A stretch of DNA of 48,097 nucleotides from a virus. The notes below the pieces were generated by a model. That model was not told the origin of the DNA. It saw only the letters and a list, made by a program, of their open reading frames with translations, and searched no databases. Position numbers and translations under genes: made by a program. How positions within the stretch are numbered: position 1 is the stretch's first letter; the number at the start of each line of letters is the position of its first letter. This document shows, in pieces, positions 20,576 through 47,331 of the stretch. The stretch covers positions 1-48,097 of the IMG/VR virus record IMGVR_UViG_3300048929_000246; one strand, written 5' to 3'.

Positions 20576-20902
20576 TTACTGAACGTAGAACTTGTCAATA
20601 GATGGTATTTTAACAATATCCCGGTCCAGGTTATAGAATCTTTTTGATTTGCCTGAAGGCATTAGTACCTGTACATCATAGGAGTGAAACTTATCTGCTG
20701 CATGCTGCTTCTTAATCACACCTTCCAGCTGTCCGGTTTCGAAATCAATAATACAGGGCCGGTCATATAAATCAGTCCCTTCATCAACAATAGGCAGGTT
20801 ATTAGTCTCCTTCCAGTTACCTAACTGAGCGTCTGTAACTACTTCTGTCTTACAAGACAGCACATAATTTGCGAAGTCGATTAATTGTTTTTCTATATAC
20901 AT
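20576..20902 (-). CDS. Small virion or connector protein, 108 aa
   Basis: Start taken at 20902 (MYIEKQLIDFANYVLSCKTE). Middle: a PCIIDFETGQLEGVI strand pair, then VQVLMPSGKSKRFYNLDRD, a beta-rich pattern. It is isolated between two terminators, downstream of the tRNA and non-coding stretch, so its transcript may be separate or set by read-through. Unknown family. Confidence 0.6.
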   Translation of the reverse strand: MYIEKQLIDFANYVLSCKTEVVTDAQLGNWKETNNLPIVDEGTDLYDRPCIIDFETGQLEGVIKKQHAADKFHSYDVQVLMPSGKSKRFYNLDRDIVKIPSIDKFYVQ

Positions 20903-20998: not shown

Positions 20999-21120
20999 AC
21001 CTTACCAAGGAGAAATTATTTGGGGCCTTATTATACCGTTTGCAACCGGTAAACGTTTTTATATGGTGTTAGTTAATCGTCATCACTTAACCCAAATTAC
21101 TCCGCTTTCATAAGGCCCTT
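20999..21120 (-). ncRNA. Putative structured RNA with interleaved pairing
   Basis: This gap between tRNA-Thr and the terminator has no open frame of note. On the minus strand, GGGCCTTAT (21118-21110) can pair perfectly with ATAAGGCCC (21031-21023). Between those arms, CTCC...CCCAAAT (21103-21091 complement) can pair with a segment at 21024-21009 (7+4 bp). The order arm 1, arm 2, arm 1', arm 2' is that of a pseudoknot. Further short local stems (GTTAA/TTAAC, TACCG/CGGTA) lie inside. It would be transcribed with the tRNA. No known RNA family is recognised. Confidence 0.4.
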
Positions 21121-21134
21121 TCTTGTTTAGGTTG

Positions 21135-21207
21135 AGCCGGAAATAGGAGTCGAACCTATAACCATCTACTTACAGGGCAGAAGCTCTGCCAATTGAGCTA
21201 TTCCGGC
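21135..21207 (-). tRNA. tRNA-Thr (anticodon UGU)
   Basis: 73-nt cloverleaf: acceptor GCCGGAA/TTCCGGC, D-arm GCTC/GAGC, anticodon stem TCTGC/GTAGA with one G-T pair, T-arm ATAGG/CCTAT with loop TTCGACT, discriminator T. The anticodon UGU is at 21174-21172. CCA is not encoded. The anticodon loop reads CCTGTAA, so position 33 is C instead of the near-universal U. Lies between two terminators, downstream of the major capsid gene. Confidence 0.9.
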
Positions 21208-47055: not shown

Positions 47056-47331
47056 TCAATGTCCTGGCCCCATTGCATATGGGCCATTTGGATCAATTTC
47101 AGGTGAAGGAATAAGGCCGCGCAATGCTGCCTGTGAATGACAATATCTATTCCCTTGTTGTTCATGTAACATTCCATCCACATGCCCATATTGGTATGTT
47201 TTATACATCTCAGCTACCATTGCGCGGGCTGCTTTATCATATTCAAGGGCATTGTGAGTGTGTCCATGACGTACATACTTGCCTCTGCTTCGTAAGCATT
47301 TTGTTCCGCCGCTGGATAATCTTGTGCGCAT
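47056..47331 (-). CDS. Hypothetical protein, 91 aa (or 3' part of a frameshifted gene)
   Basis: From about residue 20 the sequence looks coding (KYVRHGHTHNALEYDKAARA, MVAEMYKTYQYGHVDG); the first 19 residues (RTRLSSGGTKCLRSRG) look unnatural and overlap the gene at 47214-47411. The end is Pro/Gly-rich (SPEIDPNGPYAMGPGH). A one-base shift would link both frames into one protein of about 120 aa. Confidence 0.55.
   Translation of the reverse strand: MRTRLSSGGTKCLRSRGKYVRHGHTHNALEYDKAARAMVAEMYKTYQYGHVDGMLHEQQGNRYCHSQAALRGLIPSPEIDPNGPYAMGPGH

Follow-up and report, generated by a model that had tools for sequence, protein, structure and literature searches.

A probable accessory unit of tRNA-Thr(UGU) and a putatively structured 3′ trailer after the capsid gene of a phage

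The window, by which we mean the whole 48,097-base IMG/VR virus record IMGVR_UViG_3300048929_000246, carries its late genes on the minus strand. They run from the terminase (28487-26757) through the portal (26731-24773), a 301-aa protein (24776-23871), a scaffold-like protein of 307 aa (23312-22389), and the major capsid protein (22354-21299) to the neck-like gene p19416 (20525-19413). The major capsid protein was assigned from gene order and a weak PHROG virion-protein match, and the scaffold-like and neck-like genes were likewise named from gene order and weak matches. Non-coding DNA makes up about 3.1 kb of the 48-kb window. The phage is uncultured, and its host is probably a member of the Bacteroidota, the two clues being promoter type and distant matches to Flavobacterium phage terminases.

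From capsid to neck, the minus strand reads, in order, a terminator, a TATATTTG box, tRNA-Thr, about 180 nt, a second terminator, a second TATATTTG box, a small ORF, and a further terminator. The major capsid gene is followed by an intrinsic terminator (21260-21229) with a 14-pair stem and a T run, and just past it lies a promoter-like −7 box of the Bacteroidota type (21224-21217) that fits the sigma-ABfr consensus (PMC7366714). The tRNA-Thr gene (anticodon TGT; 21207-21134) was called by ARAGORN and scored 64.4 bits against Rfam RF00005; CCA is not encoded. ACA, the codon read by tRNA-Thr(UGU), is the commonest Thr codon in the 18 window genes sampled. The unit is closed by an intrinsic terminator with a 12-pair stem and a T run (20981-20955), beyond which a promoter-like box (20949-20942) precedes the next cassette, a small ORF of 122 codons (20944-20576; ATG start at 20899, product 107 aa) followed by its own terminator (20558-20525).

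The roughly 180 nt between the tRNA and the end of the closing terminator (21133-20955) contain no credible ORF. The first-pass annotation had described a non-coding stretch beside a tRNA in the late module, bounded by terminators, and this description holds, with the second terminator lying outside the interval first annotated. It had also described the RNA as isolated. Isolation from the tRNA is not supported, as neither a terminator nor a TAnnTTTG box was found between the two. Since the stretch is on the same strand as tRNA-Thr, with its first helix (P1) beginning 15 nt past the tRNA, and no terminator or box intervenes, the simplest reading of the RNA is as a 3′ trailer on the tRNA transcript.

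Bacteroides sigma-ABfr has TAnnTTTG as its −7 consensus; in Flavobacterium, the −7 element has been confirmed and the −33 element has not (PMC7366714). No −33 box was recognised at the promoter-like TATATTTG box. As TAnnTTTG occurs 42 times in the whole window (51.6 expected), which is not above chance, single boxes are weak evidence. Among relatives, 7 of 20 gaps have TAnnTTTG within 30 nt of the T run of the capsid terminator, while the expectation from 300 shuffles had a mean of 0.68 and a maximum of 4. The terminator of the tRNA/RNA unit is clear, and its box is a putative promoter whose one line of support is this comparative enrichment.

We characterized the pairing potential of the trailer. 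In a 154-nt stretch, the only perfect stems of at least 6 bp were P1, formed by GGGCCTTAT (21118-21110) and ATAAGGCCC (21031-21023), and P2, formed by ATTTGGG (21097-21091) and CCCAAAT (21024-21018), and they interleave in the order 1-2-1′-2′. A further sequence pair, GGAG (21103-21100) and CTCC (21012-21009), flanks P2 on the outside. These pairings, and the order that a pseudoknot needs, had been proposed from inspection and are indeed present on the minus strand; the 9-bp and 7-bp helices, however, overlap at 21023-21024. Because these two bases are common to both helices, P1 and P2 cannot both form in full: at most 14 of their 16 pairs can coexist, and the last two G of the P2 5′ arm pair only when P1 is opened. 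Thus, "9 + 7 + 4" overstates the simultaneous pairing, and measured against an H-type pseudoknot, in which two helices form together, the RNA has the interleaved order but two bases claimed by both helices.

The energies of the helices are unequal. P1 is worth −14.1 kcal/mol as a duplex, P2 in full −7.0 kcal/mol, and GGAG/CTCC −3.7 kcal/mol; with P1 complete, P2 shrinks to ATTTG/CAAAT, for which the isolated duplex gives −0.4 kcal/mol. The lowest-energy nested structure includes P1. Folding with ViennaRNA covered nested structures, and the pseudoknot was judged from helix energies. The nested fold had a z-score of −2.0 without the terminator and −3.8 for the whole piece with the terminator included. 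We conclude that the trailer is probably structured, and that a pseudoknot is possible and partly self-conflicting.

Searches for homologues of the RNA recovered only identical copies. At the curated cut-off, Rfam returned the tRNA alone, in agreement with the initial view that no known family fits, and relaxing the threshold to E-values up to 10 added nothing credible. There was no match to the covariance models of GOLLD, ROOL, or any other Rfam family, and ribozyme and riboswitch readings, having no match, were set aside. A blastn search of GenBank phages and plasmids gave nothing credible. A single-sequence covariance model, run over 91 sources and 16 whole related records (1.04 Mb of loci from related phages), returned only the window, all other hits having E-values of 0.3 or worse. 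Over all viral contigs, the exact P1 pattern found an identical twin and two chance matches without P2. When the phage was searched for antisense targets, the longest complementarity was 11 nt, as in shuffled sequences.

We compared this site across relatives. Searches with single proteins recovered one contig only, IMGVR_UViG_3300005547_000099, which is 99-100% identical and in which the trailer is 100% identical; terminase and portal searches of genome contigs found no relatives. A degenerate Walker-A pattern identified G001 (55% in the terminase and 43% in the major capsid protein), a second motif matched 25 stretches that, except for the identical twin, came from more distant relatives, and a profile search yielded 80 loci. 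The capsid terminator is at the same place in most relatives. At least 20 of them have only about 55-140 bp between the capsid and neck genes, taken up by the capsid terminator and, in many cases, a TAnnTTTG box ahead of the neck gene. Inserts were present only in the window and its identical contig (~780 bp, comprising the tRNA/RNA unit and the small ORF), G001 (~780 bp), and G009 (3.6 kb). Both the window and G001 inserts are made of terminator and TAnnTTTG repeats. The G001 insert lacks a tRNA and holds three short non-coding units, each set between a TAnnTTTG box and a terminator, plus a 64-aa ORF that occupies the same place as the window small ORF and is weakly similar to it. Thus, given inserts in the window and G001 against short gaps elsewhere, the slot takes cassettes, and the tRNA and RNA, found at this slot in the window lineage only, are the cargo of one lineage.

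These comparisons bear on what had been expected of the RNA. Selection for a pseudoknot had been proposed, as had a part in packaging, ejection, or another conserved late function. Neither proposal is supported: the relatives' gaps are too short to have room for the RNA, and the covariance search returns the window only. Capsid-neck gaps of relatives that do not keep the paired arms had been named beforehand as the refuting observation, and such gaps are what the comparison shows. The absence of the whole insert from relatives says that the RNA has no conserved function in the family, without denying it a function in the window phage. The evidence does not support a dedicated role for it in packaging, ejection, or regulation.

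Several other short units and inserts came to light. The three tandem units of G001 (L007, 2542-2223, minus strand) are about 60-100 nt each and are candidate small RNAs; when folded, they showed no resemblance to the window RNA. Two similar short units lie in the window at 3099-2939 (minus strand), downstream of an endolysin-like M15 peptidase gene. The first has a TAnnTTTG box at 3099-3092 and a terminator at 3051-3028, the second a box at 3019-3012 and a terminator at 2958-2939, and neither contains a credible ORF. The 3.6-kb insert of G009 (L071, 15332-18905) occupies the capsid-neck slot and has no tRNA. In the distant relatives G021, G024, and G031 (L135, L136, and L137, around 1385-1690), a conserved GCTGAYGGG..AGCCRTATGAATTATGAC stretch comes after a tRNA-Met (CAT) and runs into a reading frame, which in G021 is the scaffold-like gene; this stretch is possibly a conserved leader element.

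The reading that we prefer, with a probability of about 0.6, is that the promoter, tRNA-Thr(UGU), ~180-nt structured 3′ trailer, and terminator form a moron-like accessory unit in the slot after the capsid gene. It starts from what can be seen in the DNA: the tRNA, the terminators, the promoter-like box, the pairing potential, and an insertion specific to one lineage. As expected of a moron, one lineage has the unit and relatives have the same site without it; tRNAs in general occur only here and there in the family (6 of 30 records, the window counted). Host RNA polymerase would transcribe the unit from the TATATTTG box, which presupposes promoter activity and co-transcription, giving a precursor of tRNA-Thr(UGU) plus the ~180-nt structured trailer that ends at the unit's own terminator. 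The tRNA, which may supplement ACA decoding, would then be cut free by host tRNA processing, leaving the trailer as a separate small RNA held together by the strong P1, possibly along with a partial pseudoknot. With an intrinsic terminator at its end, the RNA left after such processing would be built like a small RNA; in B. thetaiotaomicron, small RNAs are known that have a start site as well as an intrinsic terminator (PMC7366714). The tRNA is probably the main selected product, and the trailer, if stable, may serve as a stability element or be a minor small RNA.

Alternatively, the tRNA could be the sole functional product, with a plain 3′ trailer whose pairings are chance inverted repeats and which is degraded after processing. 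We consider this unlikely. P1 is unusually strong for its place, with only 29 of 5000 local shuffles producing its equal, and a tRNA unit would not need so long a trailer. On the other side are the modest nested z-score obtained without the terminator, the tRNAs of relatives, which have nothing resembling the window trailer downstream, and the frequency with which interleaved stems arise by chance genome-wide. Locally, the pairing does exceed chance: in 2000 dinucleotide shuffles of the 154 nt, only 80 had a 9-bp stem and 8 an interleaved 9 + 7 arrangement. But since the candidate was picked from the whole genome, genome-wide counts apply. By length, the window has six interleaved 9 + 7 perfect pairs, against an average of 5.8 per shuffled genome. 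By energy, it has three entries, against an average of 0.58; these are P1/P2 and a 10-bp stem at 47117-47227 that can be read in two ways and so counts twice. At least one interleaved pair as strong occurred in 25 of 60 shuffled genomes. By simple proportion (3.1 kb of 48 kb), we estimate the chance of such strength falling in the non-coding part at roughly 4%. The evidence that the interleaved pairing exceeds chance is thus suggestive, not compelling. At 47117-47252 in the window, 6-bp stems interleave with a perfect 10-bp stem at a comparable stacking energy.

It is quite unlikely that the trailer is a dedicated pseudoknotted non-coding RNA under selection, in which stacking of P1 and P2 into an H-type fold would shield the RNA or serve to bind a partner from phage or host late in infection. 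The only two perfect stems of at least 6 bp are interleaved, an interleaved pair matched their stacking energy in only 3 of 5000 local shuffles, and the RNA sits in non-coding DNA with its own terminator. However, the two helices compete for two bases, chance readily produces comparable interleaved pairs across a whole genome, and the RNA is missing from relatives, the searches having yielded no homologue with which covariation could be assessed. Decidedly doubtful, too, is the broader notion of a new class of phage small RNA, made from a tRNA-Thr precursor by tRNA processing, stabilised by a pseudoknot clamp, and carried on exchangeable promoter-RNA-terminator cassettes after the capsid gene.

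A type III toxin-antitoxin system, in which the RNA would be the antitoxin and the small ORF at 20944-20576 the toxin, is highly improbable. The order of RNA, terminator, and small ORF would suit it, but the sequence shows no tandem repeats such as an antitoxin would have, and the ORF has its own promoter-like box and no match in Pfam, PHROGs, or PADLOC. A toxin of the ToxN, CptN, or TenpN kind was sought downstream, and the 107-aa product resembled none of them in PADLOC or Pfam. It is scarcely credible that the unit is what remains of a small mobile element whose terminal inverted repeats were GGGCCTTAT. The perfect 9-bp inverted repeat (96 bp end to end) would suit such an element, but no second copy was found in phages, plasmids, or the window, there is no clear target-site duplication, and two further viral contigs that carry this repeat share nothing else with the window.

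The accessory unit has parallels among known systems. T4 RNAC and RNAD (PMC3014915) are also small phage RNAs encoded beside tRNAs, but they belong to a tRNA cluster and their expression is known, whereas the window has one tRNA and its transcript is a predicted one; the likeness is one of position. In E. coli, 3′ETS-leuZ, a 53-nt sponge excised from a tRNA precursor that acts on the small RNAs RyhB and RybB (PMC8166272), illustrates how the 3′ trailer of a tRNA transcript could become a small RNA, although the window trailer is ~180 nt and no target was found for it in the phage. Phages and prophages also carry the GOLLD and ROOL RNAs (PMC12286853), structured non-coding RNAs near tRNA genes, but these are much larger, conserved, and Rfam families, while the window RNA has no Rfam match. 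For the genomic setting, the parallel is with phage morons such as SPP1 ORF 14, which lies between the capsid and head-completion genes (PMC6316719) and is similarly placed in the late module and lineage-specific; the window cargo differs in including a tRNA and a non-coding trailer, not an ORF alone.

Together, these results describe what is mostly an ordinary accessory insertion, and they are a caution that chance alone yields interleaved stems of such length in a genome of 48 kb. Should the trailer prove to be a stable RNA, it would extend the tRNA-linked small RNAs of phages, a poorly understood group, to a phage of probable Bacteroidota hosts. The comparison also defines a slot, made of the capsid terminator and then a promoter, where cassettes come and go.
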